A stretch of 64,000 bases of DNA from the NCBI RefSeq assembly GCF_014252395.1, contig NZ_CP059219.1, positions 44,779 through 108,778 of the forward strand, given 5' to 3'. Below are positions 43,481 to 62,953 of this stretch, piece by piece (positions within the stretch are counted from its first letter, which is position 1; every line of letters begins with the position of its first letter). The position numbers were made by a program, and so were the translations under genes. The notes under the pieces are model-generated. The model was not told the origin of the DNA and did no database searches. It saw only the letters and a program-made list of their open reading frames with translations. The DNA comes from Blattabacterium cuenoti. GTDB taxonomy: Bacteria > Bacteroidota > Bacteroidia > Flavobacteriales > Blattabacteriaceae.

Positions 43481-44038
43481 ATGTTTTATAATAAAAAAAA
43501 AATAATTAAACATTATGCTAATGTTCTTTTTGAACATTCAAAAAAAATGAATTTGACAAAATTTAATTGTTTTTATCATAAAATAAAAAAAATATATTAT
43601 TTATTACATAAAAATCATGATTTTAATAAAATTATTTATAGTAAAATATTTATTGATCAAAAAATAAAAATTTTCGAAAAAATTTTTTTATCTTTTGATA
43701 TTTTACTTTTTAATTTTATAAAATTATTAATTTTAAAAAAAAGAGAATTTCTTTTAAAAGAAATTTTTTTAGAGTATCAAAAAATATATAAAAAAGAAAA
43801 AGGATTCATTGAGTGTTCTATTATATCTGCATATCCTTTAAGTATAAATATACAAAAAAAAATTGCACATAAAATAACCCTTTTTGAATTTGAATATGTA
43901 GATAAAAAATTTCATATAATTAATAAAATAGATAAGTCTATTATTGGAGGATTTATATTTATTATAGGAAATAAAGAATGGGATATTAGTATTAAAAAAC
44001 AATTTTTTTTATTAAAAAAAACATTTAAAAATTATTAA
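43481..44038 (+). CDS. atpH: F1Fo ATP synthase subunit delta
   Basis: Peripheral stator subunit that caps F1. The 185-residue, lysine-rich protein has the N-terminal helical bundle (YANVLFEHSKKMNL) and the C-terminal signature region (KIDKSIIGGFIFIIGNKEWD). Sequence is divergent, as usual for delta, and position between atpF and atpA supports the call. Confidence 0.9.
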   Translation: MFYNKKKIIKHYANVLFEHSKKMNLTKFNCFYHKIKKIYYLLHKNHDFNKIIYSKIFIDQKIKIFEKIFLSFDILLFNFIKLLILKKREFLLKEIFLEYQKIYKKEKGFIECSIISAYPLSINIQKKIAHKITLFEFEYVDKKFHIINKIDKSIIGGFIFIIGNKEWDISIKKQFFLLKKTFKNY

Positions 44039-44051
44039 ATAAAATTTTTAT

Positions 44052-45632
44052 ATGTCTGATTTAAAATATTCTGAAATATCATCGATACTTAAAGAACAAT
44101 TATCAAATTTTAAATTTGAATCAAAATTGAGTGAATATGGTATTATTGTTCAAGTAGGAGATGGAGTAGTTAGATCTTTTGGTCTTAATAATGCTTTTTA
44201 TGGAGAATTGATAGAATTCCATTCTGGAATAGTAGGCATAGTTTTTAATTTAGAAGAAGATCATGTAAGTATTGTATTACTTAGTTCATCTAAAAATATA
44301 AAAGAAGGAGATACAGTAAGAAGAACAGGTAAAATTTTTTCTATAAAAGTAGGAGAAGGAATGTTAGGTCGTGTAGTAAATGTATTAGGAAATCCTATTG
44401 ATGGAAAAGGACCTATAAAAGGTGAATTATTTGATATGCCTTTAGAAAGAAAGGCTCCAGGTGTTATTTATAGAGAACCTGTTAAAGAACCACTTCAAAC
44501 TGGTATCAAATTTATAGATTCTATGATTCCCATAGGAAGAGGTCAGAGAGAATTAATTATAGGAGATAGACAAACTGGAAAAACAACTATAGCTATTGAT
44601 ACTATAATTAATCAAAGAAAATTTTTTGAAAAAAAAAATACAGTTTATTGTGTTTATGTGGCTATTAGTCAAAAAGGATCTGCAATTGCAAGAATTAATA
44701 AAATTTTAGAAGAAAATAGAGCTATGGAATATACAGTTATAGTTGCAGCAAAATCTTCTGAATCTGCTTCAATACAAGTATATTCTCCTTTTTCAGGTAC
44801 TACTATTGGTGAATATTTTCGTGATACGGGTCGTTCTTGTTTAATAATATATGATGACCTATCAAAACAAGCTGTTTCTTATAGAGAAATATCTTTATTA
44901 TTACGTCGTCCTCCTGGACGAGAAGCTTATCCAGGAGACGTTTTTTATTTACATTCTCGTCTTTTAGAACGTTCAGCTAAAATTATAAAAGATCAAAAAA
45001 TGGCTGAAAAAATGAATAATATTCCAAAATCTATTAAAAATAATATAAAAGGTGGAGGATCGTTAACAGCTATGCCTATTATTGAAACTCAATCTGGAGA
45101 TATATCTTCTTATATACCTACTAATGTTATTTCTATTACAGATGGACAAATATTTTTAGAAAAAGATCTATTTAATTCTGGAATTAGACCTGCAATAAAT
45201 GATAGCATATCTGTTTCTCGTGTTGGTGGAGCAGCTCAAATTCAATCTATGAGAAAAGTATCAGGGACTCTTAAATTAGATCAAGCACAATTTAGAGAAT
45301 TAGAATCTTTTTCAAAATTTGGTTCTGAATTAGATCCTTCTACTATGAAAATATTAAAAAAAGGAAAAATTAACGTAGAAATATTAAAGCAAACTGCTCA
45401 TTATCCATATGATATAGAGGATCAAATTGCTATTATTTATGTGGGAACTACAAATATTTTACAAGATTTTCCTATTGATAAAGTTTTAGATTTTGAAAAA
45501 GAATATCTTTTTTATTTAAAAGAAAAACATGAAAACTTATTAAAATCTTTAAAAAATGGTATTCTTAATGAAGAAATATCTAAAATTTTAGAAAAAGTAG
45601 CATTTGAAATTAGTAGGAAATATATTTATTAA
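44052..45632 (+). CDS. atpA: F1Fo ATP synthase subunit alpha
   Basis: Non-catalytic nucleotide-binding subunit of the F1 hexamer, 526 residues. Walker A is GDRQTGKTT at 171-179, and the signature near [17 protein letters not shown] is present, as is [20 protein letters not shown]. Length and motif order are normal. The catalytic beta subunit gene atpD is not in this cluster. Confidence 0.97.
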
Positions 45633-45643
45633 TTAAATTATTT

Positions 45644-46510
45644 ATGGATAATACAAAAGAGATCAAGAGAAGAATTTTATCAATAGAATCGGTTATAAAA
45701 ACTACTGAAGCAATGAAAATGATCTCTGTTGTTAAATTAAAAAAATCCAAAAATAAGCTAATACAAGCAAAAATTTATTTAGATTATATTAAATCATTTT
45801 TTTTAGATTTTGAAAAAGATTTTTTAATCAAAAAAAAATATTTTTTTTCTTCAATAGGAAAAAAACTATTTATTATATTTACTTCTAATCGTGGTTTATG
45901 TGGTTCTTTTAATTCCTTAATTTTTGAAAAAATTAATCAAATTTTAAAAAAAGAAAAAGATCCAAATAAATGTATTTTTTTTTCTATAGGTAAAAAAGGG
46001 TTTTCTTTTTTATCAAAAAAATACAATATGTATGAAATCAATAACAGCATATATGATTACATGAATATATTTTCTTATGAAGAAAGAATTAATTTTGTTA
46101 AACAATTAATTAAAGATTTTTTTAAAAAAAATTTTTCTTCAATTTATTTAGTATATAATAGTTTAAAAAACTCTTTATTTCAAGAAATAATAGTAGAAAA
46201 ATTTCTTCCAATTGTTATAAAAGATTTAAAAAATACAAAAATATCATTTTCTATTTTAGAACCTTCTAAAGAAATCATTTTAGAATATATAATTTTAAAA
46301 TTTTTAAATGCAAAATTATTAAAGATCTTTTTAGAGTCTATTGCATCAGAACATACAGCACGTATGATATCTATGCATAAAGCTACAGAAAATGCATTTG
46401 ATATTAAAAATAATTTAATGTTAAACTATAATAAAGAAAGACAAACTAATATCACTAAAGAAATATTAGAAATAATAGGAGGTTTAGAATCAATAAATAA
46501 TGAAAAATAA
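45644..46510 (+). CDS. atpG: F1Fo ATP synthase subunit gamma
   Basis: Central rotor shaft. The N-terminal helix starts with KEIKRRILSIESVIKTTEAM and the C-terminal helix ends with SEHTARMISMHKATENA and NKERQTNITKEILEIIGG, both classical. 288 residues is typical. It closes the cluster; atpD and atpC (beta and epsilon) must be elsewhere, the usual Bacteroidota arrangement. Confidence 0.95.
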   Translation: MDNTKEIKRRILSIESVIKTTEAMKMISVVKLKKSKNKLIQAKIYLDYIKSFFLDFEKDFLIKKKYFFSSIGKKLFIIFTSNRGLCGSFNSLIFEKINQILKKEKDPNKCIFFSIGKKGFSFLSKKYNMYEINNSIYDYMNIFSYEERINFVKQLIKDFFKKNFSSIYLVYNSLKNSLFQEIIVEKFLPIVIKDLKNTKISFSILEPSKEIILEYIILKFLNAKLLKIFLESIASEHTARMISMHKATENAFDIKNNLMLNYNKERQTNITKEILEIIGGLESINNEK

Positions 46511-46530
46511 ATATTTTTCATTATTTATTA

Positions 46531-46538
46531 TACATTTG
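46531..46538 (+). promoter_or_regulatory. Candidate -7 element for trpS
   Basis: TACATTTG fits TAnnTTTG, 28 bases before the trpS ATG. There is no clear TTTG at the -33 position. Confidence 0.25.
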
Positions 46539-46566
46539 TTTTTAACAATGTAAATTTTTTAAAAAA

Positions 46567-47553
46567 ATGGAAAAAATGTTAACAGGTATTAGAAGTACAG
46601 GTACTCCTCATTTAGGAAATATCTTAAGTGTTATAATTCCATCTATAAATATAGCTAATAAAAAAAAAAATACTTCATTTATATTTATAGCTGATTTACA
46701 TTCTTTGATTAATATAGATAATTTACAAAATATTAAAGATAATACTTATAAAATTGCAGCTGCATGGTTAGCTTTTGGATTAAATACAGAAAATTGTCTT
46801 TTTTATAGACAATCTGATGTTACAGAAGTAACTGAATTAGCTTGGTATTTTAGTTGTTTTTATCCCTATAAAAGACTTACATTAGTTCATACTTTTAAAA
46901 ATGAAATTGAAGAAAATAAAAATAAAATAAATACAGGATTATTTATATATCCTATTTTAATGTCTGCTGATATTTTATTATACAACGCAAAAATTATTCC
47001 TGTTGGAGAAGATCAATTACAACATATTGAAATAGCTAGACGTATAGCTAATTTTTTTAATAAAAAAGTAGGAGAAAAAATTTTTATACAACCTAATGCT
47101 TTTTTACAAAAAAAAACAATGTCTGTTCCTGGAACAGATGGAAAAAAAATGAGTAAATCTAAAAAAAATTATATTAATATTTTTTCATCAGATGATCTTT
47201 TAAAAAAACAAATAATGAATATATATACAGACAATAAATCTTTAGAAGAAAAAAAAAATCCTGAAAAAGATAATATAATGTCTTTATATAAATTAATAGC
47301 TCCTTTGGATAAAATAGAAAAAATGAAAAACAAATATATAAAAGGAGGATATGGATATTTAGATGCTAAAAAAGCATTATATGAACTTATTATACATAAA
47401 TTTTCAGTAGAAAGAGAAAAATTTTTTTCTTTTATAAAAAATAAATCTTTATTAGATAATATTCTTTTTTCAGGAGCTAAAAAAGCAAAAAATATAGCTA
47501 ATAAAAGATTAAATTACATTAGAAAATATTTGAATTTCAATTCTTTATTATAA
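46567..47553 (+). CDS. trpS: Tryptophanyl-tRNA synthetase
   Basis: Charges tRNA-Trp. The class I HIGH-like motif is GTPHLGN near residues 12-18, and the KMSKS loop is GKKMSKSKKN. Other family segments are FIADLHSL and YPILMSADILLYNA with VPVGEDQ-like IPVGEDQLQHIE. 328 residues is typical. Confidence 0.96.
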   Translation: MEKMLTGIRSTGTPHLGNILSVIIPSINIANKKKNTSFIFIADLHSLINIDNLQNIKDNTYKIAAAWLAFGLNTENCLFYRQSDVTEVTELAWYFSCFYPYKRLTLVHTFKNEIEENKNKINTGLFIYPILMSADILLYNAKIIPVGEDQLQHIEIARRIANFFNKKVGEKIFIQPNAFLQKKTMSVPGTDGKKMSKSKKNYINIFSSDDLLKKQIMNIYTDNKSLEEKKNPEKDNIMSLYKLIAPLDKIEKMKNKYIKGGYGYLDAKKALYELIIHKFSVEREKFFSFIKNKSLLDNILFSGAKKAKNIANKRLNYIRKYLNFNSLL

Positions 47554-47593
47554 ATTTTATATATAAAATATGTCATAATGTCATAATTATAAA

Positions 47594-47616
47594 TAGTGGC
47601 AAATCTTTTGCTATTA
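47594..47616 (+). promoter_or_regulatory. Hairpin between trpS and grpE
   Basis: TAGTGGCAAA (47594-47603) and TTTGCTATTA (47607-47616) form a ten-pair stem with two G:U pairs and a three-base loop. No T run follows, so it is not a standard terminator; it is 25 bases before the grpE start and could be a control element or an mRNA structure. It does not match the CIRCE operator. Confidence 0.35.
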
Positions 47617-47641
47617 ATTATGTTTAAAATATTTTTATATT

Positions 47642-48247
47642 ATGGATATTAATCAAAAAAAAACTGAAAAGAAAACTGAAAAGAAAACTGAAAAGAAAAC
47701 TGAAAAGAAAACTGAAAAGAAAACTGAAAAAAAAGTAGATTTATCTAATAATAAAAATGATATTACTAACGTAAATTATTCTTGTAAAGAGGATCTATCT
47801 GAAATAGATATTTTAAAAAAAAAATTAGAAGAGGAAAAAAATAAGTTTTTACGTCTTTTTGCAGAATTAGAAAATTATAAAAAACGTATTCAGAAAGAAA
47901 GATTTGATATTTTTAGAGCAGTTCATGAAGAAATTTTTATAGATTTAATTCCTATTTTGGATGATTTTGAACGTGGTCTTAAAGAATTAAAAAAATCTAA
48001 AGATGAATTCCTTATAAAAGGAATATCTTTGATACAAGAAAAATTTATTAAAATTTTAAAAGAAAAAGGATTAAAAAAAATTAAAATAAAAAAAGGAGAT
48101 GAATTTAATACAGATTTACACGAAGCTATATCACAAATACCAACAATAAAAGAAAATTTAAAAGGAAAAATTATAGAAATAATAGAATCCGGATATTTTC
48201 TAAAAGAAAAAGTGATAAGACATGCTAAAGTTGTTACTGGAAAATAA
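47642..48247 (+). CDS. grpE: Nucleotide exchange factor GrpE with an N-terminal KTEK repeat
   Basis: Releases ADP from DnaK. The long helix (IDILKKKLEEEKNKFLRLFAELENYKKR region, about residues 58-85) and the C-terminal beta domain (DEFNTDLHEAISQIPT, ESGYFLKEKVIRHAKV) are normal. The disordered N-terminus contains six tandem copies of a Lys-Thr-Glu-Lys unit (about residues 7-31), made by a 12-base repeat. 201 residues in all. dnaJ follows after 12 bp; dnaK is not here. Confidence 0.95.
   Translation: MDINQKKTEKKTEKKTEKKTEKKTEKKTEKKVDLSNNKNDITNVNYSCKEDLSEIDILKKKLEEEKNKFLRLFAELENYKKRIQKERFDIFRAVHEEIFIDLIPILDDFERGLKELKKSKDEFLIKGISLIQEKFIKILKEKGLKKIKIKKGDEFNTDLHEAISQIPTIKENLKGKIIEIIESGYFLKEKVIRHAKVVTGK
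47663..47734 (+). repeat. 12-bp tandem repeat in grpE, six copies
   Basis: Six copies of actgaaaagaaa start at 47663, 47675, 47687, 47699, 47711 and 47723; only the last differs. Twelve bases keep the frame, so copy number can vary without breaking GrpE. Confidence 0.9.
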
Positions 48248-48259
48248 TAATATATTTTC

Positions 48260-49378
48260 ATGGTGAAAAAAGATTATTACGAAGTATTAGGTATTGCTAG
48301 AAATGCTTCTTCAGAAGAAATTAAAAAAGCCTATAGAAAATTAGCAATAAAATATCATCCAGATAAAAATTTAGATAATAAAAAAAATGCAGAAGAAAAA
48401 TTTAAAGAAGCGGCTGAAGCTTATGAAATTTTAAGCAATACAGAAAAAAGGAAACGTTATGATAAATTTGGACATTCTGGAGTGAAAGGAAGTAGTTCAA
48501 GTTCAGAAATGAATATGGAAGACATTTTTGCAAATTTTGGAGATATTTTTGCAGATGCGTTTGGTGAAGGTTTTTCTAGTTTTGGATTTGGAAGATCTGC
48601 TAGACATAAAACAATTAAAGGAAGTGATTTAAGAATCAAAGTTAAACTTTCATTAGAAGAAATAGCTAATGGTATAGAAAAAAAAGTAAAAGTAAAAAGA
48701 TTGAAAGTAGCTAAAGGTATAACAATTAAAAATTGTTATTATTGTAAAGGAGTTGGACAAACAACACGTGTAACTAACACTATTCTAGGAAGAATGCAAA
48801 CTACTTCTCAATGTCATTCCTGTTCTGGAATTGGAAAAAAAATTGAAAATATACCTTATGGAGCGAATAAACATGGATTAATAAAAGAAGAAGAATTAGT
48901 AAATATAAAAATTCCTGCTGGACTTACAGAAGGTATACAATTAAAAGTTTCTGGAAAAGGAAATGAAGCTCCTTTTGGTGGAATACCAGGAGATTTAATA
49001 GTATTAATTGAAGAAATTGCACATCCTAAATTAAAAAGAGAAGGAAATAATCTTCATTATGATTTATACATATCATTTCCAGATGCTATATTAGGAGCTT
49101 CAAAAGAAATTCCTACTATTAATGGAAAAGCTAGAATAAAAATAGATCCAGGAACACAATCAGGAAAAACTCTTAGATTAAAAAATAAAGGATTACCTAA
49201 TATTGAGGGATATGGATATGGTAGTCTTTTAATTCATGTTAATGTTTGGACTCCAAAAAAAATTAATGAAGAACAAAAAAAATTTTTTGAAAAAATGAGA
49301 AAAAATGAAAATTTTCTTCCACATCCAGGAAATTCAGAAAAATCTTTTTTTGATCGTGTAAGAGAAATGTTTTCTTAA
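48260..49378 (+). CDS. dnaJ: Chaperone DnaJ with only two of four zinc motifs
   Basis: Co-chaperone that delivers clients to DnaK and stimulates its ATPase. The J domain has HPD at residues 33-35, followed by a Gly/Phe-rich segment (about 85-115). The central domain has CYYCKGVG (159-166) and CHSCSGIG (185-192), which correspond to motifs 2 and 3. Motifs 1 and 4 have no cysteine. By the known pairing, zinc centre II (2+3) is kept and centre I (1+4) is lost. The C-terminal peptide-binding domains look complete (372 residues). Confidence 0.95.
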
Positions 49379-49516
49379 TAAATATTTTTAACGATAAATA
49401 CACATTTTTACTATAAATTAAATTTATTCATTACATATTTCATATGTTATTTTAATAGTTTGTATTAATTTATCGTTTATTTACTTAAAATTTTTTAAAA
49501 AAATTAATAACTTTTT

Positions 49517-50692
49517 ATGCAAAAAAAAGTGATAGTAGGACTTTCAGGAGGTGTAGATTCAAGTGTTGCTGCGTTAATTTTAAAAAAAATAGGTTATAAA
49601 GTAATTGGTTTATTTATGCATAATTGGGAAGAAAAAACAAGTAAATGTACTTGGATAGAAGATAGTATTGATGCGATGTTGGTTTCTAACCAATTGAATA
49701 TCCCTTTTCAAATAGTAGAAATGAAAAAAGAATATAAAAAATATGTTATTAATTATATGTTCAAAGAATATGAATTAGGTAATACTCCTAATCCAGATAT
49801 TTTATGCAATAGAGAGATTAAATTTAATATTTTTTTGAAAAAAGCTATTGATTTAGGTGCAGATTTTATTGCTACAGGTCATTATGTCAATAAAGAAAAA
49901 ATTATAAAAAATAATAAAATTATTTATCGTCTTTCAATAGGAAAAGATCTTAATAAAGATCAATCATATTTTTTATGTCAATTAACACAATATCAATTAA
50001 AAAAATCTCTTTTTCCATTAGGATTATTTACAAAAAATCAAGTACGAAAAATAGCAGAAAAAAACGGTTTGTGCAATGCTCATAAAAAAGATTCACAAGG
50101 ATTGTGTTTTATAGGAAAAATTAAATTACCTGAATTTCTTCAAAAAAAAATTTTACCAAAAAAAGGAGAAGTTGTATGTATTAATTCTAATTCTTTAATA
50201 TATAAAAAAAAAATAATTTTTTCTTCTTTAGAAGAAGAATTATTTTTTTTATCTAGAAAAAGAAAATATAAAAAATCAGATGGAAAAGTAATTGGATATC
50301 ATAAAGGAGCTTATTTATTTACTAAAGGTCAACGTAAAGGAATAGCCATAGGAGGCTATAAAAAAGCTCTTTTTGTTATTGAAACAGATGTAAAAAAAAA
50401 TATTGTTTATACCGGATTTGGAAATAAACATCCTGGATTATATAATAAATCTTTATTTATTAAGGAAAAAGACATTCATTGGATACGAGAAGATCTTGCA
50501 CTTTTTGAAGGAGAAAAAATGGATGTATTTTCTAGAATTCGTTATAGACAAGTTTTACAAAAATCTAAATTACATAAAATAAAAAAAGGAATGTTAATTG
50601 AGTTTGAAATTATGCAATGTGCAATAACAGAAGGACAATTTGCAGTTTGGTATCTTGGAAAAGAGTTAATAGGTTCAGGAATTATTTCATAA
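49517..50692 (+). CDS. mnmA: tRNA 2-thiouridylase MnmA
   Basis: Puts sulfur on U34 of tRNA-Lys, -Glu and -Gln. The PP-loop is LSGGVDSS at residues 9-16, and the catalytic Cys97 is in NPDILCNRE; the second cysteine lies in GLCFIGK. YFLCQLTQYQL and the C-terminal segment FTKGQRKGIAIGG match the family. 391 residues. Preceded by a 138-bp gap with an A+T-rich inverted repeat of doubtful meaning. Confidence 0.95.
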   Translation: MQKKVIVGLSGGVDSSVAALILKKIGYKVIGLFMHNWEEKTSKCTWIEDSIDAMLVSNQLNIPFQIVEMKKEYKKYVINYMFKEYELGNTPNPDILCNREIKFNIFLKKAIDLGADFIATGHYVNKEKIIKNNKIIYRLSIGKDLNKDQSYFLCQLTQYQLKKSLFPLGLFTKNQVRKIAEKNGLCNAHKKDSQGLCFIGKIKLPEFLQKKILPKKGEVVCINSNSLIYKKKIIFSSLEEELFFLSRKRKYKKSDGKVIGYHKGAYLFTKGQRKGIAIGGYKKALFVIETDVKKNIVYTGFGNKHPGLYNKSLFIKEKDIHWIREDLALFEGEKMDVFSRIRYRQVLQKSKLHKIKKGMLIEFEIMQCAITEGQFAVWYLGKELIGSGIIS

Positions 50693-50820
50693 TTTTTATG
50701 ATTATAATCATAAATAATATTTTTATAAAATTTATAATATATTCATTAATAAAACAAAAAAATAATGATATTATAAAAATAAATACCTAAAATATTCTTT
50801 TATATAATATATTTTTTTCA

Positions 50821-50828
50821 TATTTTTG
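50821..50828 (+). promoter_or_regulatory. Candidate -7 element for the ilv operon
   Basis: TATTTTTG fits TAnnTTTG; a TTTT at 50798-50801 stands at the 19-base spacing where TTTG is expected. Transcription would start near 50833, giving a leader of about 113 bases that contains both hairpins described below. Confidence 0.35.
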
Positions 50829-50851
50829 CATATTATATAATTTAATAATTC

Positions 50852-50879
50852 AGTAGTTTTATAATAAAAAAAAACTACT
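50852..50879 (+). promoter_or_regulatory. First hairpin of the ilv leader
   Basis: AGTAGTTTT (50852-50860) pairs perfectly over nine bases with AAAACTACT (50871-50879) around a ten-base loop. The 3' arm's CTACT could instead pair with AGTAG at 50916-50920, part of the second stem, so the two structures could compete. Confidence 0.45.
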
Positions 50880-50884
50880 AAAAA

Positions 50885-50920
50885 TTGTTGATATTTCTAT
50901 CCCTATTGGTTATTCAGTAG
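50885..50920 (+). CDS. Possible leader peptide of the ilv operon, rich in Leu, Ile and Val codons
   Basis: From TTG 50885 the frame reads LLIFLSLLVIQ and stops at TAG 50918-50920. Eight of eleven codons are Leu, Ile or Val, and the Leu codons are CTA and TTG, not the TTA that dominates this genome. The frame lies across the 5' arm and loop of the terminator-like hairpin, and its stop is in the 3' arm. There is no ATG, so a TTG start (50885 or 50888) has to be assumed. The pattern fits a branched-chain amino acid attenuator, but the frame is very short. Confidence 0.35.
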   Translation: MLIFLSLLVIQ

Positions 50921-50928
50921 GGGTTTTT
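50899..50928 (+). terminator. Attenuator-like terminator hairpin before ilvD
   Basis: ATCCCTA (50899-50905) pairs with TAGGGGT (50918-50924), six Watson-Crick pairs and one G:U, around a twelve-base loop, followed by TTTTT (50924-50928). This G+C-rich stem stands out in the surrounding AT-rich spacer. It is 18 bases before the ilvD ATG, so it would act on ilv transcription and not on mnmA alone. Confidence 0.5.
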
Positions 50929-50945
50929 GATTTATAAAACATTTC

Positions 50946-52631
50946 ATGAAAAAAAGGATTAATCATTTTAGCAAAAAAATAACAGAAGAACAAAATTTAC
51001 CTGCAGCACATGCTATGTTATATGCTACAGGAATGAAAGAATCTGATTTTTTAAAAGCGCAAATAGGAATAATAAGTAATTGGTATGAAGGAAATCCTTG
51101 TAACATACATTTAGACCAATTAGCAAAAAAAATAAAATCATCAATAAAAAAACGTTATTTAATAGGATTTCAAATTACTACTATTGGAGTAAGTGATGGT
51201 ATAACTATGGGGACATCAGGTATGAGATATTCACTACCTTCTAGAGAATTAATAGCGGATAGCATAGAAACAGTAATAGATTCACATTATTATGATGGAG
51301 TCATATCTATTCCTGGATGTGATAAAAATATACCAGGATCTATTATAGGTTTACTTAGATTAAATAGACCATCTATTATTGTATATGGAGGTTCAATTTC
51401 TTCTGGTTATTACAATGGTAATAAATTAGATATTGTATCATCTTTTGAAGCTTTAGGAAAAAAAAAATCCTGTAAAATAACTGAAATAGAATATAAAAAT
51501 ATAGTAAAAAATTCTTGTCCAGGACCAGGAGCCTGTGGTGGAATGTATACTGCAAATACGATGGCTTCTGCTTTAGAATGTATGGGAATGATGCTTCCTT
51601 ATTCATCTTCCTCTCCATCAACAAGTAAAAATAAAATAGTAGAATGCGAAGAAGTTTCTAAGTATATTTTAAATTTATTAGAAAAAAATATAAAACCAAA
51701 AGATATAGTAACAAAAGATTCTATAGAAAATGGAATAAAATTAGCTATATGTTTAGGAGGTTCTACTAACTTAGTTTTACACTTTTTAGCTATTTCAAAA
51801 TCAGCAAATATTAATTTTTCTTTAAAAGACTTTCAAAGAATTAGTGATCAAATTCCTCTTATTGGAAATTTAAAACCTAGTGGAAACTTTCTTATGGAAG
51901 ACATTCATATGTATATTGGAGGAATACCTGTTATTATAAAATATTTATTAAATGAAGGAATATTATCTGGTAACTGTTTAACAGTTACTGGAAAAACATT
52001 ATCTGAAAATATGGAAAATGTTCCTAATATTAATTTTAGTCATAAAATAATTTATCCACTTGATAATCCTATTAAAAAAAATGGACATATAAGAATTTTA
52101 TATGGAAATCTTTCTCCAGAAGGATCAGTAGCTAAGATTACTGGTAAAGAAGGAACTTTTTTTCGTGGTAAAGCAAATGTTTTTAATTCAGAAGAAGAAG
52201 CTAATATAGCTATTTTGAATAATCAAATTTATTCTGAATCAGTAATTGTTATAAGATATGTAGGACCTAAAGGAGGTCCTGGAATGCCAGAAATGTTAAA
52301 ACCTACATCTTATATTATGGGATCAGGATTAGGAAAAAAAGTAGCTCTTATTACAGATGGTAGATTTTCAGGAGGATCACATGGTTTTGTTGTAGGACAT
52401 ATTACTCCAGAAGCATTATCTGGAGGATTAATTGCTTTTGTAAAAAATGGTGATTTTATTAAAATAGATGCAGAAAAAAATACTATTACTCTTGAAGTAG
52501 ATGAAGAAGAAATACAAAAAAGAAAAAAATCATGGACTCCACCTTCATTAAAAATAAAGAAAGGATATTTATATAAATATGCTAAAATAGTATCTCCAGC
52601 TTCTCAAGGATGTGTTACAGATGAATTTTAA
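50946..52631 (+). CDS. ilvD: Dihydroxy-acid dehydratase
   Basis: Third step of isoleucine and valine synthesis, dehydrating dihydroxy acids to the keto acids. Iron-sulfur cysteines are in IPGCDKNIPGS and CPGPGACGGMYTANTM; the C-terminal signature GSGLGKKVALITDGRFSGG is present. 561 residues is typical. It is first in the ilvD-B-N-C-A cluster and lies right behind an attenuator-like leader. Confidence 0.97.
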   Translation: MKKRINHFSKKITEEQNLPAAHAMLYATGMKESDFLKAQIGIISNWYEGNPCNIHLDQLAKKIKSSIKKRYLIGFQITTIGVSDGITMGTSGMRYSLPSRELIADSIETVIDSHYYDGVISIPGCDKNIPGSIIGLLRLNRPSIIVYGGSISSGYYNGNKLDIVSSFEALGKKKSCKITEIEYKNIVKNSCPGPGACGGMYTANTMASALECMGMMLPYSSSSPSTSKNKIVECEEVSKYILNLLEKNIKPKDIVTKDSIENGIKLAICLGGSTNLVLHFLAISKSANINFSLKDFQRISDQIPLIGNLKPSGNFLMEDIHMYIGGIPVIIKYLLNEGILSGNCLTVTGKTLSENMENVPNINFSHKIIYPLDNPIKKNGHIRILYGNLSPEGSVAKITGKEGTFFRGKANVFNSEEEANIAILNNQIYSESVIVIRYVGPKGGPGMPEMLKPTSYIMGSGLGKKVALITDGRFSGGSHGFVVGHITPEALSGGLIAFVKNGDFIKIDAEKNTITLEVDEEEIQKRKKSWTPPSLKIKKGYLYKYAKIVSPASQGCVTDEF

Positions 52632-52635
52632 TTTT

Positions 52636-54330
52636 ATGGAAAATCAATTATTTTCTGGTTCAGAAATAGTAATAAAAGCGCTATTATATGAAGAGGTTGA
52701 GTATATATTTGGTTATCCAGGTGGAGCTATTATGCCTATATATGATTCTTTACATGATTATTTAAATATGATATCGCATATATTAATGAGACATGAACAA
52801 GGTTCTATTCATGCGGCTCAAGGATATGCTAGAGCAACTGGAAAAATAGGTATATGTTTTACTACATCAGGACCTGGAGCTACTAATTTGATTACTGGAT
52901 TAGCTGATGCTTTAATTGATAGTACACCTATTATTTGTATTACTGGACAAGTATCTTCTAATCTTTTAGGAACTGATGCATTTCAAGAAACAAATATTAT
53001 AGATATATCTCTTCCTGTAACAAAATGGAATATTCAAATTTTAAAAGCTAATGATATTTGTGAATCAATTCAAAAAGGGTTTTTTATAGCAAAAACAGGT
53101 AGACCAGGCCCAATTTTAATAGATATAACTAAAGATGCTCAATTACAAAAAACTGAATTTAGTTATTCACGTTGTGAACATATAAAAAATTTTCATCCAT
53201 TTCCTTCTATAGATTTAAAAAAAATAATAGAAGCAGCAGATTTAATAAATACTTCTAAAAAACCTTTAATTATTGTAGGACAAGGCGTTATATTATCAGA
53301 ATCAGAAGAAGAATTGAAAAAATTTGTTGAAAAAACAGGAATACCAGTAGCTAGTACTTTACTAGGATTAGGAGCATTAGATAGTACACATTACTTATAT
53401 GTAGGTATGTTAGGAATGCATGGTAATTATGCTCCAAATATTTTAACAAATCAATGTGACGTTTTAATTGCAGTGGGAATGAGATTTGATGATCGTGTTA
53501 CAGGTGATATAAATAAATATGCAAAACAAGCTAAAATTATTCATTTAGAAATAGATTATTCTGAAATAAACAAAAATATACTATGTCATATTCCAATTTT
53601 AGGAAATTGTAAAACTGCTTTAAAAAAGTTAATTCTTTACGTAAAAAAATCTTCTCATAAAGAATGGGTAAAAAAATTTATTCATTTTAAAGAAAAAGAA
53701 GATATAACAGTAATACAAAGCGATTTAAATCCAATAAAAAAAGGAATTACTATGGGAGAAGTTATAAAATGGATTAATTTATATAAACAAAAAAATGCAA
53801 TTTTAGTAACTGATGTAGGTCAACATCAAATGATAGCTTCTAGATATTTTAATTTTACTTATAAAAAAAGTCAAATAACTTCTGGTGGATTGGGGACTAT
53901 GGGATTTGCTTTACCAGCTTCAATAGGTGCTAAATTAGGAGCAAAAAATAGACAAGTAATTTGTATTGTTGGAGATGGAGGAATTCAAATGACAATACAA
54001 GAAATGGGTACTATATTACAAAATAATATTTCTATAAAAATTATATTATTAAATAATAATTTTTTGGGAATGGTACGACAATGGCAACAATTATTTTTTG
54101 ATAAACGTTATTCGTGTACAAAGTTAGTTAATCCAAACTTTATAAAATTAGCTAACGCTTATAATATTCAAGCAAAAAGAGTTGAAAAAAGAAATAAATT
54201 AAAAGAATCTGTAAAAAAAGCATTATATAATGAAAAAGCTTTTTTATTAGAAATTATAGTAGAAAAAGAAGATAATGTTTTTCCTATGATTCCTGCAGGA
54301 TCTGCTGTAAATGAAATTCGTTTAACATAA
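52636..54330 (+). CDS. ilvB: Acetolactate synthase large subunit
   Basis: First common enzyme of branched-chain amino acid synthesis, using thiamine diphosphate. The catalytic Glu lies in RHEQGSIHAAQGYARATGK, and the ThDP-binding region is GDGGIQMTIQEM with NNNFLGMVRQWQQ. I start it at Met 52636 (MENQLFSGSEIV, 564 residues), four bases after the ilvD stop, where relatives begin; an in-frame ATG at 52612 would overlap ilvD by 20 bp and add eight residues. The ilvN regulatory subunit follows after 13 bp. Confidence 0.96.
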   Translation: MENQLFSGSEIVIKALLYEEVEYIFGYPGGAIMPIYDSLHDYLNMISHILMRHEQGSIHAAQGYARATGKIGICFTTSGPGATNLITGLADALIDSTPIICITGQVSSNLLGTDAFQETNIIDISLPVTKWNIQILKANDICESIQKGFFIAKTGRPGPILIDITKDAQLQKTEFSYSRCEHIKNFHPFPSIDLKKIIEAADLINTSKKPLIIVGQGVILSESEEELKKFVEKTGIPVASTLLGLGALDSTHYLYVGMLGMHGNYAPNILTNQCDVLIAVGMRFDDRVTGDINKYAKQAKIIHLEIDYSEINKNILCHIPILGNCKTALKKLILYVKKSSHKEWVKKFIHFKEKEDITVIQSDLNPIKKGITMGEVIKWINLYKQKNAILVTDVGQHQMIASRYFNFTYKKSQITSGGLGTMGFALPASIGAKLGAKNRQVICIVGDGGIQMTIQEMGTILQNNISIKIILLNNNFLGMVRQWQQLFFDKRYSCTKLVNPNFIKLANAYNIQAKRVEKRNKLKESVKKALYNEKAFLLEIIVEKEDNVFPMIPAGSAVNEIRLT

Positions 54331-54343
54331 ATATTTATATACT

Positions 54344-54655
54344 ATGAAGAATCAATTCAGAATAATAATTTTAGGAGAAAATGAAACAAGATTATTAAGT
54401 AGAATTCTTATTCTATTAAATAGAAGAAATTTTAAAACTAATCATATTAATGTATCTAATAATATTGTCAATGGAACTATTGGAAATTGTCAATATGTTT
54501 TAGATTTAGAATGTAATGAAGATCAACTAATAAAAGTAAAAAAATTAATTGAAAAATTAATTGGAATAATTCATGTCTATTATTCTAAAATAGAAGGAAA
54601 AAATTATAAAAATAATTCTTGGAAAAAAATAAATTTACCATTAGCAACATCTTAA
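54344..54655 (+). CDS. ilvN: Acetolactate synthase small (regulatory) subunit, short form
   Basis: An ACT-domain protein of 103 residues that binds the large subunit and normally mediates valine feedback. Only the N-terminal ACT domain is present (FRIIILGENETRLLSRILI, NRRNFKTNHINV, then the second half to about residue 85). Flavobacterial small subunits are usually about 170 residues with a second C-terminal domain; that part is missing. E. coli IlvN is about this short, so activity as an activator is possible. Loss or change of valine inhibition is inference. Confidence 0.88.
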   Translation: MKNQFRIIILGENETRLLSRILILLNRRNFKTNHINVSNNIVNGTIGNCQYVLDLECNEDQLIKVKKLIEKLIGIIHVYYSKIEGKNYKNNSWKKINLPLATS

Positions 54656-54671
54656 ATAAAAAAATAAAATC

Positions 54672-55712
54672 ATGAAAATTAAATTTGGATCTGTTGAAGA
54701 AAATATTGTTACAAGAGAAGAATTTTCTTTAGAAAAAGCTAGAAAAATATTAAAAAAAGAAACTATTTCTATATTAGGATATGGTGTTCAGGGACCTGGA
54801 CAATCACTAAATTTAAAAGATAATGGATTTAAAGTTATAATAGGACAAAGAAAAAATTCTTCTTCTTGGGAAAAAGCTTTAAAAGATGGATGGGAAGAAA
54901 AAAAAAATCTTTTCTCTTTAGAAGAAGCTTCTGAAAAAGGTACAATATTAATGTATTTACTATCAGACGCAGGTCAAATATCTTTTTGGCCCATACTTAA
55001 TAAATACCTTACTAAAGGTAAGTCTTTATATTTTTCACATGGATTTGGATTAACTTTTTTTGATAAAACTAAAATATATCCTTCTAAAGATATAGATATT
55101 TTTTTAGTAGCTCCTAAAGGATCAGGAACTAGTTTAAGAAGACTTTTTAAACAAGGAAAAGGAATTAATTCTAGTTATGCTATTTATCAAGATTATAGTG
55201 GTAAAAGTTTAGAAAAAGCTATATCAATTGGAATAGGAATAGGATCTGGATATTTGTTTGAAACAAGTTTTAAAAATGAAGTATTATCTGATTTAGTAGG
55301 AGAAAGAGGGACTTTAATGGGAGCTATACAAGGAATTTTTGCAGCACAATATCAAATATTAAGAAAAAAAGGACATTCTCCTTCAGAATCTTTTAATGAA
55401 ACAGTAGAAGAATTAACTCAGAGTTTAATGCCTTTAGTGTCAGAAAAAGGAATGGATTGGATGTATGAAAATTGTTCTACAACAGCTCAAAGAGGAGCTT
55501 TAGATTGGTGGAAAAAATTTAGAGATGCTACATTACCAATATTTAATGAATTATATGAAGAAGTTTCTTCAGGAAGAGAAGCTGAAAGAATTATAGAAGC
55601 AAATAGTGATATAGACTATAGAATAAAATTAAATAAAGAGTTACAAGATTTAAAAAAAAGTGAATTATGGGAAGTAGGATCTGTTATTCGTGATTTAAGA
55701 CCAAAAAAATAA
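54672..55712 (+). CDS. ilvC: Ketol-acid reductoisomerase
   Basis: Second step of isoleucine and valine synthesis, an isomerisation with NADPH-dependent reduction. The nucleotide-binding loop is GYGVQGPGQSLNLKDNG, and APKGSGTSLRRLF, ERGTLMGAIQGIFAAQY and the metal-binding carboxylates in the knotted C-terminal domain are seen. 346 residues fits the short class. It lies 16 bp after ilvN. Confidence 0.96.
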   Translation: MKIKFGSVEENIVTREEFSLEKARKILKKETISILGYGVQGPGQSLNLKDNGFKVIIGQRKNSSSWEKALKDGWEEKKNLFSLEEASEKGTILMYLLSDAGQISFWPILNKYLTKGKSLYFSHGFGLTFFDKTKIYPSKDIDIFLVAPKGSGTSLRRLFKQGKGINSSYAIYQDYSGKSLEKAISIGIGIGSGYLFETSFKNEVLSDLVGERGTLMGAIQGIFAAQYQILRKKGHSPSESFNETVEELTQSLMPLVSEKGMDWMYENCSTTAQRGALDWWKKFRDATLPIFNELYEEVSSGREAERIIEANSDIDYRIKLNKELQDLKKSELWEVGSVIRDLRPKK

Positions 55713-55752
55713 TTTTTTTCATTTTTATTAACATTATTTATCTTTTAAAAGA

Positions 55753-57018
55753 TTGAAAAATAAATTACAAGGATATTTCCCTTCTTATGAAGATGTAATT
55801 AGAGCTAAAAATATATTAAAAAATATTATTTATGAAACTCCATTACAAAAAAATTTTCTTTTATCAGAAAAATATAAAGCTAATATTTTTTTGAAAAGAG
55901 AAGACTTACAAATTATTCGTTCATATAAAATTAGAGGAGCTTATAATAAAATAAAAAGTTTATCCCATATAGAACTAAAAAAAGGAATTGTTTGCGCAAG
56001 TGCAGGAAATCATGCACAAGGAGTAGCTTATTCTTGTAATATTTTAAAAATACCAGGTAAAATTTATATGCCTAGTACTACGCCTAAACAAAAAGTAGAA
56101 AGAGTAAAAATGTTTGGAAAAGAGTATGTTGAAATAATTCTTATTGGAGATACTTTTGATTCAGTTAGTAATGAAGCAATAAAATATTGTAAAAAAAATG
56201 CAAAAATATTTATTCATCCTTTTGATGATATTAAAATTATTGAAGGACAAGCTACTGTAGGTTTAGAAATTTTACAACAATCTATTTTAGATATAGACTT
56301 TATTTTTATTCCTATTGGAGGAGGAGGATTAGCTTCTGGTATAGGAAGCCATTTTAAACAATTTAGTCCAAAAACTAAAATTATAGGAGTTGAACCTAAA
56401 GGTGCTCCATCTATGAGTTTTTCTTTAAAAAAAGGAAAAGTGATAGAATTAAAAACAATAGATAAATTTATTGATGGGGCTTCGGTAAAAAAAGTTGGAA
56501 ACTTAAATTTTAATATATGTAATCAAGTATTACATGATATAAAAACAGTTCCAGAAGGAAAAGTTTGTACAACTATTTTAGATTTATACAATTTAGAAGC
56601 TATTGTAGCAGAACCAGCTGGAGCACTTTCAATAGCAGCTTTAGATTTTTATTCTGAAAAAATAAAAGATAAAACTATTGTTTGTATTTTAAGTGGAGGT
56701 AATAATGATATTACTAGAACAGAAGAAATAAGAGAAAGATCTTTATTATATGAAGATAAAAAACATTATTTTATAGTTAAATTTCCACAAAGAGCTGGAG
56801 CTTTAAAAGAATTTGTAAATAATATTTTAGGACCAAAAGATGATATAGCTTATTTTGAATATTCTAAAAAAACTTCTAAAGAAGAAGGTCCAGCTATTAT
56901 AGGAATAGAATTAGCAGATAAAAATGAATTTTCTGTATTATTAGGAAGAATGAAAAAACATAGAGTTCATTTTCAATATCTAAATAAAAATCCAGATTTA
57001 TTTCGTGTACTTATTTAA
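55753..57018 (+). CDS. ilvA: Threonine ammonia-lyase (threonine deaminase)
   Basis: Makes 2-oxobutanoate for isoleucine synthesis. The PLP lysine is in IRSYKIRGAYNKI, the phosphate loop is IPIGGGGLASG, and SAGNHAQGVAYS is the substrate loop. The C-terminal region after residue 335 (HYFIVKFPQRAGALKEFVNN) is an ACT-like regulatory domain, so allosteric control by isoleucine is expected. It begins with TTG at 55753; no in-frame ATG is nearby and the first residues align with the family, so I accept it. Last gene of the ilv cluster; a tRNA-Leu gene converges on it. Confidence 0.94.
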   Translation: MKNKLQGYFPSYEDVIRAKNILKNIIYETPLQKNFLLSEKYKANIFLKREDLQIIRSYKIRGAYNKIKSLSHIELKKGIVCASAGNHAQGVAYSCNILKIPGKIYMPSTTPKQKVERVKMFGKEYVEIILIGDTFDSVSNEAIKYCKKNAKIFIHPFDDIKIIEGQATVGLEILQQSILDIDFIFIPIGGGGLASGIGSHFKQFSPKTKIIGVEPKGAPSMSFSLKKGKVIELKTIDKFIDGASVKKVGNLNFNICNQVLHDIKTVPEGKVCTTILDLYNLEAIVAEPAGALSIAALDFYSEKIKDKTIVCILSGGNNDITRTEEIRERSLLYEDKKHYFIVKFPQRAGALKEFVNNILGPKDDIAYFEYSKKTSKEEGPAIIGIELADKNEFSVLLGRMKKHRVHFQYLNKNPDLFRVLI

Positions 57019-57025
57019 ATTTATG

Positions 57026-57111
57026 TACCCACGACTGGATTTGAACCAGCACATCCTAAATAGGATACCACCCCCTCAAAGTGGCGTGTCTACCAATTTC
57101 ACCACGTGGGC
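57026..57111 (-). tRNA. tRNA-Leu (anticodon GAG)
   Basis: An 86-base cloverleaf on the minus strand. Acceptor GCCCACG pairs with CGTGGGT (first pair G:U) and the discriminator is A; CCA is not encoded. D-stem is GTG/CAC, the anticodon loop reads TTGAGGG with GAG at 34-36, the class II variable arm has stem ATCCTA/TAGGAT, and the T-loop is TTCAAAT. It reads CTC and CTT codons. It lies between ilvA and dapB on the opposite strand. Confidence 0.95.
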
Positions 57112-57158
57112 TTATTTTTTTAAATAAGTTAAATTTTTATTAATTAAAAAAAAAATAT

Positions 57159-57863
57159 ATGAATATAGCAATAATAGGATATGGAAAAATGGGTAAAACT
57201 ATAGAAAAAATATTAAAAATTAGAAATCATAATATTTCATTATGTTATGATGAAACTCCTACTTCATTTTTATTAAAAGGAACAGATGTAGCAATAGAGT
57301 TTAGTGAACCTTATTCTGCGTTTAATAATATTCTATTATGTATAAAAAATAATATACCTATAGTAAGCGGAACTACAGGTTGGTTAGAAAAATTTGAAAC
57401 TATTAAAAAAATATGCATAGAAAAAAATGGTTCTTTTTTATATTCTTCTAATTTTAGTATTGGTATGAATATTTTTTTTGAAATTAATAAAAAATTATCA
57501 AAACTGTTGTATCCATATACTAATAATTTTGATGTAGAAATAGAAGAAATTCATCATAAAGAAAAAATAGATAAACCTAGTGGAACTGCAATTTCTTTAG
57601 CAAAAGATATCATAAATAATAAAATGAAAGAAACTTGGACAAGTAATGAAAAAAAAACAAAACATCAAATTTTAATTTTTTCAAAAAGATTAGAAAACGA
57701 ACCAGGAACACATACTATTTTGTATAAATCTAAAATAGAAAATATAAAAATTCAACATAAAGCTCATAATAGAGATGGTTTTGCTTTTGGAGCTATTATT
57801 GCTGCAGAATGGATTAAAGATAAAAAAGGAGTCTTTTATATGAAAGATGTATTAGGTTTATAA
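57159..57863 (+). CDS. dapB: 4-hydroxy-tetrahydrodipicolinate reductase
   Basis: Second committed step of the diaminopimelate and lysine pathway, for cell wall and lysine supply. The dinucleotide motif is GYGKMGKTI at residues 7-15, and the substrate motif EEIHHKEKIDKPSGTA has the catalytic His and Lys. 234 residues is typical for Bacteroidota. It is followed after 12 bp by lepB. Confidence 0.95.
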   Translation: MNIAIIGYGKMGKTIEKILKIRNHNISLCYDETPTSFLLKGTDVAIEFSEPYSAFNNILLCIKNNIPIVSGTTGWLEKFETIKKICIEKNGSFLYSSNFSIGMNIFFEINKKLSKLLYPYTNNFDVEIEEIHHKEKIDKPSGTAISLAKDIINNKMKETWTSNEKKTKHQILIFSKRLENEPGTHTILYKSKIENIKIQHKAHNRDGFAFGAIIAAEWIKDKKGVFYMKDVLGL

Positions 57864-57875
57864 TAAAAAATTTAT

Positions 57876-59363
57876 ATGCATCAATATTTTTTTTATAGTA
57901 GTATTTTTTTATGTTTTGAATATTTTATTCATATTTTAGGTACATATAATCTTTATAAAAAATTAGGTATAAGTTCTTGGAAAGTTTTTATACCTATATA
58001 TAATATTTTTATACTTTTAAAAATTTATGGAAGATCTATATGGTATATTTTTTTCTTATTTGTTCCATTAACAAGTATTATTTTATTTTTTATTTTATGG
58101 ATTGATTTAATTCGATCTTTTGGTAAAACAAAAAAAAAAGATATTATTTTATTTTTATTATCTGCAGGAGTATTATATATTTATTATATAAATTTTTTTG
58201 ATAAATCTATAAAAGTAAAAAAAATAATAAAAAAAGATAATCATACAGGAATTTTATTAGCAGTAGTCCTTTCTTTTATAACACATATTTATATAGTTCA
58301 ACCTTTCGTTATTCCTACTTCTTCTATGGAAAAAAGTTTATTAGTTGGAGATTTTATACTGGTTAGTAAAATACATTATGGATTGAGAATGCCTATGGCT
58401 CCTATTTTTATTCCTTTTATGCATAATAATATTATTGGTAAGATTAAATCTTATATATCATTTTTTAAATATCCTTATTTTCGTTTTTCTCCTATAGATT
58501 TTATACAAAGAAATGATATCGTAGTTTTTAATTTTCCTAAAGATATTAATCATAAAATAATAGACAGAAAAGATAATTATATTAAACGTTGTGTAGGATT
58601 ACCTGGAGATTTAATTTATATTAAAAAAGGAATTTTATTTATTAATCATAAAAAAGAAAAATCTTTTTTAGAAAAACAAGAATCTTTTTTTATTAAAACT
58701 AAAAATATTCCTCTAAATACAGAATATCTTAAAAATGATATGGATATTGAAGATATTGATTTTTTTGGAGAAAAAAATAATGAATATTATTATCAAATTA
58801 TGTTAACCAAAAAAAAAGCTATTGAAATAAAAAATTTATTTGATAATATAATTTATATAAAAAAAAATATTTTTCCTTTTAATTTTAAAGAACCATCTAT
58901 TTTTCCAAACCATTTTAATTGGAATAGAGATTTTTTTGGACCATTACATATTCCTAAAAAAGGAGAATTAATTGAATTAAATTTTAAAAATATTCATATT
59001 TATCATGAAATTTTATCTTTTGAAAAGATAGAAAAAGTAATTTATAATTCTAAAAAATTTTTTAAAATAAAAAAAAATTATTATTTCATGATGGGAGACA
59101 ATAGACATAATTCTTATGATTCTCGTTATTGGGGATTTGTTCCTGAAGATCATATAGTGGGTAAACCATTATTTATATGGATGAGTATAGATTGGAATCG
59201 TAAAAATCCTTTAAACTTTTTTAATTGGAAATTTCGTTTTAATCGTATTATGACAACAATAGATGGAAAAAATTCTTATTTTATCCATTTTTTTATATTT
59301 TCTATTATATATTTTTTATATTTATTTTTTATAAAAAAAACTACCTATAAAATAACCAGATAA
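57876..59363 (+). CDS. lepB: Signal peptidase I with an N-terminal membrane extension
   Basis: Cleaves signal peptides of exported proteins at the outer face of the inner membrane. After several N-terminal helices (about residues 1-110, a DUF5684-like region) comes the catalytic domain: nucleophile Ser150 in PTSSMEKSL, general base Lys237 in NYIKRCVGLPGD, and GDNRHNSYDSRYWGFVPEDH. A last helix near 470-490 is present. The length (495) and large insert between the boxes fit flavobacterial LepB. Its 3' end overlaps the convergent rhomboid gene by 42 bp. Confidence 0.93.
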   Translation: MHQYFFYSSIFLCFEYFIHILGTYNLYKKLGISSWKVFIPIYNIFILLKIYGRSIWYIFFLFVPLTSIILFFILWIDLIRSFGKTKKKDIILFLLSAGVLYIYYINFFDKSIKVKKIIKKDNHTGILLAVVLSFITHIYIVQPFVIPTSSMEKSLLVGDFILVSKIHYGLRMPMAPIFIPFMHNNIIGKIKSYISFFKYPYFRFSPIDFIQRNDIVVFNFPKDINHKIIDRKDNYIKRCVGLPGDLIYIKKGILFINHKKEKSFLEKQESFFIKTKNIPLNTEYLKNDMDIEDIDFFGEKNNEYYYQIMLTKKKAIEIKNLFDNIIYIKKNIFPFNFKEPSIFPNHFNWNRDFFGPLHIPKKGELIELNFKNIHIYHEILSFEKIEKVIYNSKKFFKIKKNYYFMMGDNRHNSYDSRYWGFVPEDHIVGKPLFIWMSIDWNRKNPLNFFNWKFRFNRIMTTIDGKNSYFIHFFIFSIIYFLYLFFIKKTTYKITR

Positions 59364-60011
59364 AATCCCACCAACATGAGCAAAATGTGCAACTCCAGGT
59401 GCTAAATTAAAAATGGATGAAATAATACTTCCAAAAATGAAAATTAAAAGAGCTTTTCTTACAGCTATAGGAAAAGGAAAAGGTAAAATAAAAATTTTAT
59501 GTTCTGGAAAAAACTTAGCAAAAGCTCCTACTATTCCACTTACTGCTCCAGAAGCTCCCATCATAGGAGAATACATAGAACTATAAAGATTAATTCTTTG
59601 ATTTTCATTTAAATAATACAATGTTTTTTTAGCTTGTGAAAAATCTAATGTTTGAAGAAAAAAATACATAACACTAGTATTGAAAATAATTTGTAAAAAT
59701 GCTGCTAAAATACCTGATAAAAAATATATTATCATAAATTTTTTAATTCCCAATAAAGTTTCTATTTGTCCTCCAAACATAAATAAAGCTAACATATTAA
59801 AAATTATATGTAAAAAAAGACGTTTAGAATGCACAAACATATGAGTTAAAATTTGATATAATTCAAATCGTCCATCTAAAGGATGATATAGAGAAAGAAT
59901 ACTTTCTATTTTATATTGAGAGAAAACAAATATAGCTGTATATACAAGTATATTAATACTAATTAAATGTTTTACACCATCTGAGTTGATGTTGTTATTA
60001 TAGTAATTCAC
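59322..60011 (-). CDS. Rhomboid-family intramembrane serine protease
   Basis: A 229-residue polytopic membrane protease. The catalytic dyad is Ser154 in GASGAVSG and His212 in AHFAHVGG, with HIIFNMLALFMFGG providing the oxyanion residues. Six hydrophobic segments are visible. Substrates are unknown. It is last in a minus-strand set (TPR, ribH, mutL, rhomboid), its ATG overlapping the mutL stop by four bases. Confidence 0.92.
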   Translation of the reverse strand: MNYYNNNINSDGVKHLISINILVYTAIFVFSQYKIESILSLYHPLDGRFELYQILTHMFVHSKRLFLHIIFNMLALFMFGGQIETLLGIKKFMIIYFLSGILAAFLQIIFNTSVMYFFLQTLDFSQAKKTLYYLNENQRINLYSSMYSPMMGASGAVSGIVGAFAKFFPEHKIFILPFPFPIAVRKALLIFIFGSIISSIFNLAPGVAHFAHVGGILSGYFIGSFFYKK

Positions 60012-61780: not shown

Positions 61781-62263
61781 TTATTTAATAGATTTTTTAA
61801 ATAAAGACATATATATAGCTGTTTTAGCACATTCTATACCTTTATTGCCATTTTTTCCACCTGATCTTTCAAAAGATTGTTTCTTATTTTTATCAGTAAG
61901 TACACAAAATATAACAGGAACATCATATTTTATATTTATATCCTTAATTCCTTGTGAAATAGATTGACATAAATATTTAAAATGATAAGTATCTCCTTCT
62001 ATTAAGGATCCTATTACAATAATAGAATCAAAATTATAACAATTTGCTATTTTTTTAGAAGAATAAATTAATTCATAACTACCTGGTACTTTCCAAGTTT
62101 TTATTTTTTCTTTTAAAATTCCTAACTGAATTAAAGTATCATATGCTCCTTGATATAATCTATAAGTAATTTCTTTATTCCATAAAGATAGAATAATAGC
62201 AAATTTTAAATTTGCATTTTTTATTTTTTTTTTATCTAAAAAATAAATAGGATATTCTTTCAT
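61781..62263 (-). CDS. ribH: 6,7-dimethyl-8-ribityllumazine synthase
   Basis: Penultimate step of riboflavin synthesis. Motifs are FAIILSLWNKEI, VPGSYEL, GSLIEGDTYHFKYLC with the catalytic His, and FCVLTDKNKKQ. 160 residues. It starts 15 bp after the TPR gene and ends directly against the mutL start. I recall the set TPR-ribH-mutL-rhomboid as conserved in flavobacteria. Confidence 0.94.
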   Translation of the reverse strand: MKEYPIYFLDKKKIKNANLKFAIILSLWNKEITYRLYQGAYDTLIQLGILKEKIKTWKVPGSYELIYSSKKIANCYNFDSIIVIGSLIEGDTYHFKYLCQSISQGIKDINIKYDVPVIFCVLTDKNKKQSFERSGGKNGNKGIECAKTAIYMSLFKKSIK

Positions 62264-62278
62264 AAAACATGAGTTAAT

Positions 62279-62890: not shown

Positions 62891-62953
62891 AATAAGTATA
62901 AAAATATTTACATATATAAATTTAATTTTTATTGAAATATCAAAAAAATAATG

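Follow-up and report, generated by a model that had tools for sequence, protein, structure and literature searches.

A conserved promoter and terminator-like hairpin, and no conserved leader peptide, before the ilv operon of Blattabacterium

The leader that precedes the ilvDBNCA operon of the cockroach symbiont Blattabacterium is derived from an ancestral attenuator, carries no conserved leader peptide and retains a terminator-like hairpin under selection. Our interpretation, to which we assign a probability of roughly 0.6, is that it constitutes a "headless attenuator", in which the ilv attenuator of the Flavobacteriales has lost its peptide while selection has maintained the promoter, 5' end, hairpin and tail, with the his and trp leaders having followed the same course. 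Leaky termination and loss of sensing are what we infer for such a leader.

Structure and conservation of the ilv leader

The window, the whole stretch of 64,000 nucleotides that was analysed, originates from a Blattabacterium genome of 626 kb. Within it, mnmA (49517-50692) and ilvD (50946-52631) are separated by a gap of 253 bases which contains the leader. The original prediction of an attenuator at this locus had listed a promoter box, two hairpins, a short frame rich in Leu, Ile and Val codons and a second AGTAG, all of which are present where they had been placed. The features of the locus are as follows.

50821 to 50828, + strand: sigma-A -7 box of the Bacteroidota, TATTTTTG (TAnnTTTG), from the sequence, the alignment and the box position in F. 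psychrophilum
50829 to 50842, + strand: 14-mer CATATTATATAATT around the transcript start, containing the palindrome ATTATATAAT, from conservation
50842 to 50891, + strand: hairpin 1, from its fold and its foldability in relatives
50885 to 50920, + strand: TTG frame, LLIFLSLLVIQ*, present and judged a chance frame
50899 to 50924, + strand: terminator-like hairpin, ATCCCTATTGG-TTAT-TCAGTAGGGGT, 11 pairs and richer in G+C, from fold and conservation
50924 to 50935, + strand: tail TTTTTGATTTAT, comprising the U-tract and part of the ilvD initiation region, from conservation
50946 to 52631, + strand: ilvD, first gene of the operon, above cut-off for NCBIfam NF002068 and TIGR00110
52612 to 57018, + strand: remainder of the operon, ilvB, a short ilvN-like ACT protein, ilvC and ilvA, from NCBIfam

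In an alignment of ilvD upstream regions, the TAnnTTTG box is kept in nearly all larger-genome Blattabacterium. In F. psychrophilum, positions -12 to -5 are taken up by this box (PMC9723704), which predicts an ilv transcript start near 50833. Hairpin 1 consists of an inner stem of nine pairs (50852-50860/50871-50879) and an outer stem (50842-50850/50883-50891). The terminator-like hairpin is followed by T5 (50924-50928), the first T of which closes the stem, and the U-tract is short and broken by an almost invariant GA.

Conservation was gauged against fourfold-degenerate sites of ilvD, at which mean pairwise identity in 23 species is 64%. In the same species, mean pairwise identity is 97.5% in the 14-mer CATATTATATAATT, the first 14 bases past the box, 95% and 91% in the two arms of the terminator-like hairpin and 98% in the tail, compared with 61%, an approximately neutral rate, in hairpin 1 plus the linker. 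Identities so far above that of the fourfold sites place the 5' end, the tail and the terminator hairpin, as judged from the alignment, under purifying selection, which does not extend to the sequence of hairpin 1. The fold of hairpin 1 is nevertheless retained: the window leader folds better than shuffled sequences (z -3.35), and a mean z of -1.85 against shuffles is observed for hairpin 1 across the 23 species. Thus, hairpin 1 held up as a foldable element and not as a conserved sequence, nor was its covariation significant. Covariation had been put forward as a check on both stems; pair counting detected nothing beyond shuffles in either, because the terminator is almost invariant and the changes in hairpin 1 are not compensated.

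The promoter and terminator-like hairpin exceed chance, both being conserved across the genus and an equally good terminator-like site occurring in only 0.7% of 150 random 120-nt pieces of the window. Scanning of the window for terminators took in positions 1-40000 and 44001-64000. With a covariance model of the leader, 34 of the 49 Blattabacterium genomes each gave a single significant site, adjoining ilvD in every case where ilvD was located; G062 gave one additional site at E 0.7. The 14-mer CATATTATATAATT occurs once in the window, is exact in 20 of the upstream regions L001-L025 and is nearly invariant where the hairpin is present, with the ATTATATAAT palindrome perfect, and is mostly altered in hairpin-less lineages. 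Its role may be that of an operator or of an element in initial transcription.

Several observations concern the neighbouring genes. The leader hairpin was considered as the mnmA terminator and rejected, as a conserved promoter intervenes and mnmA has its own palindrome, ATGATTATAATCAT (about 50698-50711), just 3' of its stop and followed by T5 a few bases on (window 50698-50725), which is the likely mnmA terminator. The ilvB, ilvC and ilvA products pass the NCBIfam cut-off and the ilvN-like match is weak; the IlvN-like protein (54344-54655) is 103 aa in length, its ACT-domain matches are weak and well under cut-offs, and this regulatory subunit appears reduced. LeuA of the same Blattabacterium genome (L097 1105-2319), at 404 aa, stops short of the C-terminal leucine-feedback region, and a LeuA_dimer domain was detected in 0 of 49 genomes in a comparison within Blattabacterium.

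Ancestral leader peptides and the his and trp leaders

Descent from a peptide-containing leader is documented in the outgroups. In free-living Flavobacteriales, the sequence upstream of ilvD reads as a leader peptide followed by a terminator in L037 (MMQISIIITSVVVVNVIHTSASGML), with a similar peptide in L038, in L033 (MRVNNVILSIIILLCQL) and in L042 (MNNITDTLLITILLLLTGDTVR). Leader peptides also precede ilvD in Saprospiraceae (L054, MPNLTTIINIIIVVIPPG; L055, MPNLTNIIAIIIIVVSPPG) and in a Rhodothermia bin (MLSTVISLVIIRVIGIQYRPGRLCSK); none was found before ilvD in L034, L035, L040 and L041, and no such ilv leader was seen in Walczuchella. Among outgroups that have kept an intact leader, the Geopemphigus aphid symbiont (L046) is the nearest, its IlvD being 68% identical. 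Its leader contains the peptide MEQFYILLINITLVVTLLIRQRGRH and a terminator (CCCTGCC..GGCAGGG), and GGGTAGG:CCTGCCC, a pairing judged by eye, is a possible antiterminator. The ATG of this peptide is situated where transcription is predicted to start (TACGTTTG-TTTC-ATG), which suggests that the peptide is leaderless. Read in this way, the ancestral ilvD leader is of the ribosome-mediated type, and would have comprised a leader peptide with clustered Ile, Val and Leu codons, an antiterminator and a terminator. By a d'Aubenton-Carafa-type score, outgroup ilv terminators reach about 20-38 versus +1.3 in the window.

A parallel situation is observed at two other operons of the same genome, where a TATATTTG box and a hairpin lie upstream of both hisG and trpE. 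The his hairpin, AAGCTTAC..GTAAGCTT, is conserved in about 30 species (L098-L127, L064), with a T-rich tail and a position directly before hisG, and the trp hairpin, GGCTTGTC..GACGGCC, is likewise conserved with a T-rich tail in about 30 species (L128-L157, L065). His-rich frames before hisG and Trp-rich frames before trpE were absent from the Blattabacterium species, about 30 in each case. In contrast, HHHH and WWW/WW peptides precede hisG and trpE in free-living relatives (MFINQLHHHHFHNCSQAMC, MNLIQTHHHHHTGSQTSQG, MNNTWWWKNLRQTS), whose trp terminator is recognisably homologous to that of Blattabacterium (GGCTTGTC). Peptide loss with retention of the hairpin has thus taken place at three attenuators. 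A hairpin of this kind was not seen by eye upstream of thrA in the same genome as the window.

Two further features of these leaders were observed. In many species the his leader contains a two-codon frame, ATG CAT TAA (Met-His-stop), at the predicted transcript start. In the trp leader of many species, an upstream ATGGTATT is complementary to AATACCAT just 5' of the trpE start, a pairing that would enclose the trp terminator.

In the headless attenuator, hairpin 1 would form first in a transcript initiated near 50833, followed by the terminator hairpin; a fixed share of transcripts would end near 50928 and the rest continue into ilvDBNCA. The hairpin would then set a constant, peptide-independent level of ilv expression, or shield the 5' end, with no response to charged tRNA.

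Alternative readings of the leader

Three observations bear against this interpretation. By the same d'Aubenton-Carafa-type score, the ilv hairpin rates as marginal in the window, and most relatives have negative values; termination may therefore be weak or absent, a doubt that arises because the U-tract is short and GA-interrupted and because part of the tail, GATTTATAA, survives in two hairpin-less lineages (L029, L031). Conservation of the tail is also explicable by ilvD translation initiation. Finally, in one clade an apparent antiterminator pairing, CTATTCAAGT:ACTTGATAG, links hairpin 1 with the terminator, and hints that switching is retained there.

This last pairing would fit a reading in which the ilv, his and trp attenuators of Blattabacterium became switches that have no peptide and still control termination. 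At ilv, the 3' arm of hairpin 1 would compete for the 5' arm of the terminator, the balance being set by a sensor other than the ribosome, with an RNA-binding protein, a small RNA, a metabolite or polymerase speed as candidates. In its favour are the retained foldability of hairpin 1 and the conservation of the 14-mer CATATTATATAATT, and the truncated transcripts of five species (L004, L006, L008, L011, L017) do fold into a form of the CTATTCAAGT:ACTTGATAG pairing. Neither the window nor most other lineages have this pairing, however, and a genus-wide conserved antiterminator was rejected as the pairing is confined to one clade. With hairpin 1 evolving at a near-neutral rate, covariation not significant and no Rfam family at threshold, we consider such a switch unlikely.

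Similarly improbable is that the hairpin does not terminate transcription at all, acting instead to stabilise ilv mRNA or to shape the region in which ilvD translation is initiated. Marginal terminator scores, the nearly invariant GA within the U-tract and a conserved tail, part of which outlasts the hairpin, are what such a 5' hairpin would lead one to expect. It is opposed by the position and architecture of the hairpin, which are homologous to those of the strong outgroup terminators, and by the trp hairpins of the same genomes, which are still good terminators by this score in most species.

The mechanism advanced in the original prediction, in which a ribosome stalled on Leu, Ile and Val codons of the TTG frame covers the 5' arm of the terminator and allows transcription of ilvD, is very unlikely. 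The frame exists (TTG TTG ATA TTT CTA TCC CTA TTG GTT ATT CAG TAG), 8 of its 11 codons specify Leu, Ile or Val and the ancestors of Blattabacterium possessed control of this type. Among shuffles, 0.26% contain its exact composition and 2.8% a looser version, and such a frame is found in 0.45% of real window pieces; this rarity is post hoc, the frame having been picked after the fact. The frame has no ATG and is private to the window, being found in no relative, the nearest included; in the two most similar species the frame ending at the same TAG reads CYFFIPTNR. A search with alternative starts in all three frames of 25 species revealed no Leu/Ile/Val-rich frame that was conserved or consistently enriched over shuffles. 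Moreover, the stop of the TTG frame (50918-50920) falls inside the 3' arm of the terminator, whereas in L037 and L046, as read from sequence, the leader stop precedes the terminator by roughly 25 nt. A ribosome would therefore disrupt the hairpin whether stalled or finishing normally, making the overlap a non-discriminating design. The five-pair alternative helix fares little better: AGTAG is present at 50916-50920 and could pair with the 3' arm of hairpin 1 in the window, a capacity private to this species, as in most relatives that arm is CTATTC or similar and cannot pair likewise. Examination of close relatives, the check originally suggested, thus recovered a conserved terminator stem and no conserved branched-chain amino acid codons. 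What survives of the attenuator proposal is that the leader is attenuator-derived, lies before the ilv operon and had a ribosome-mediated ancestor; the sensing part does not.

The distribution of the hairpin is relevant to a last alternative. The ilv hairpin has been lost in lineages with genomes smaller than about 590 kb and is eroded in L022 and L023, its loss requiring about three changes on an IlvD protein tree with modest branch support. No ilvD match was found in three Blattabacterium genomes (G006, G025, G035), and in G012 (L039) ilvD is broken into pieces with stops, the hairpin before it being intact and the promoter box absent. Loss and erosion of this kind, and persistence beside a broken gene, would suit a relic of that attenuator which no longer has a function, an explanation that we regard as most improbable given that the hairpin changes far more slowly than fourfold sites across the genus and is retained in parallel at three operons.

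Relation to known systems and significance

The leader resembles leader-peptide attenuators of the E. coli ilv, his and trp type in possessing a promoter, a leader of ~110 nt and a terminator-like hairpin adjoining the first gene of the cognate operon, and its ancestry is demonstrable in the Flavobacteriales, where there are reported clues, from F. psychrophilum, to the control of amino-acid operons by leader-peptide attenuation (PMC9723704). It differs in having no cognate-codon peptide and no conserved antiterminator, and in its weak U-tract. Other reduced insect symbionts have also lost leader peptides and amino-acid-responsive attenuation: Buchnera is described without leader sequences and without attenuation (PMC3091783, PMC3229713), and leaders are eroding in Serratia symbiotica (PMC4122931). 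Unlike Buchnera, in which leaders are reported to be wholly absent, Blattabacterium keeps the terminator half under selection at three operons. Leader-peptide loss as such is therefore known from Buchnera, and selective retention of the terminator at three operons appears to be new; a literature search of partial coverage found nothing on Blattabacterium attenuators.

Rfam gave no match above the gathering score for window 50500-51300 or for two relatives (L005, L010). The PyrG leader (RF02371), which shares with the ilv leader a short length and a terminator, scored 24 bits, its gathering score being 65, and was rejected as a sub-threshold match that confers no membership; an Rfam CRISPR repeat match on the other strand was rejected as sub-threshold. 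A search of a plasmid collection produced no match.

The outgroups show that classical leader peptides exist in the Flavobacteriales at ilv, his and trp, and the ilv peptide persists in one other insect symbiont. Across the genus Blattabacterium, the sensing and terminating halves of one control have separated, in parallel at three amino-acid operons. This split makes it testable how much regulation is left in a symbiont that feeds amino acids to its host, and whether a terminator that has no sensor may serve as a fixed gain setting.
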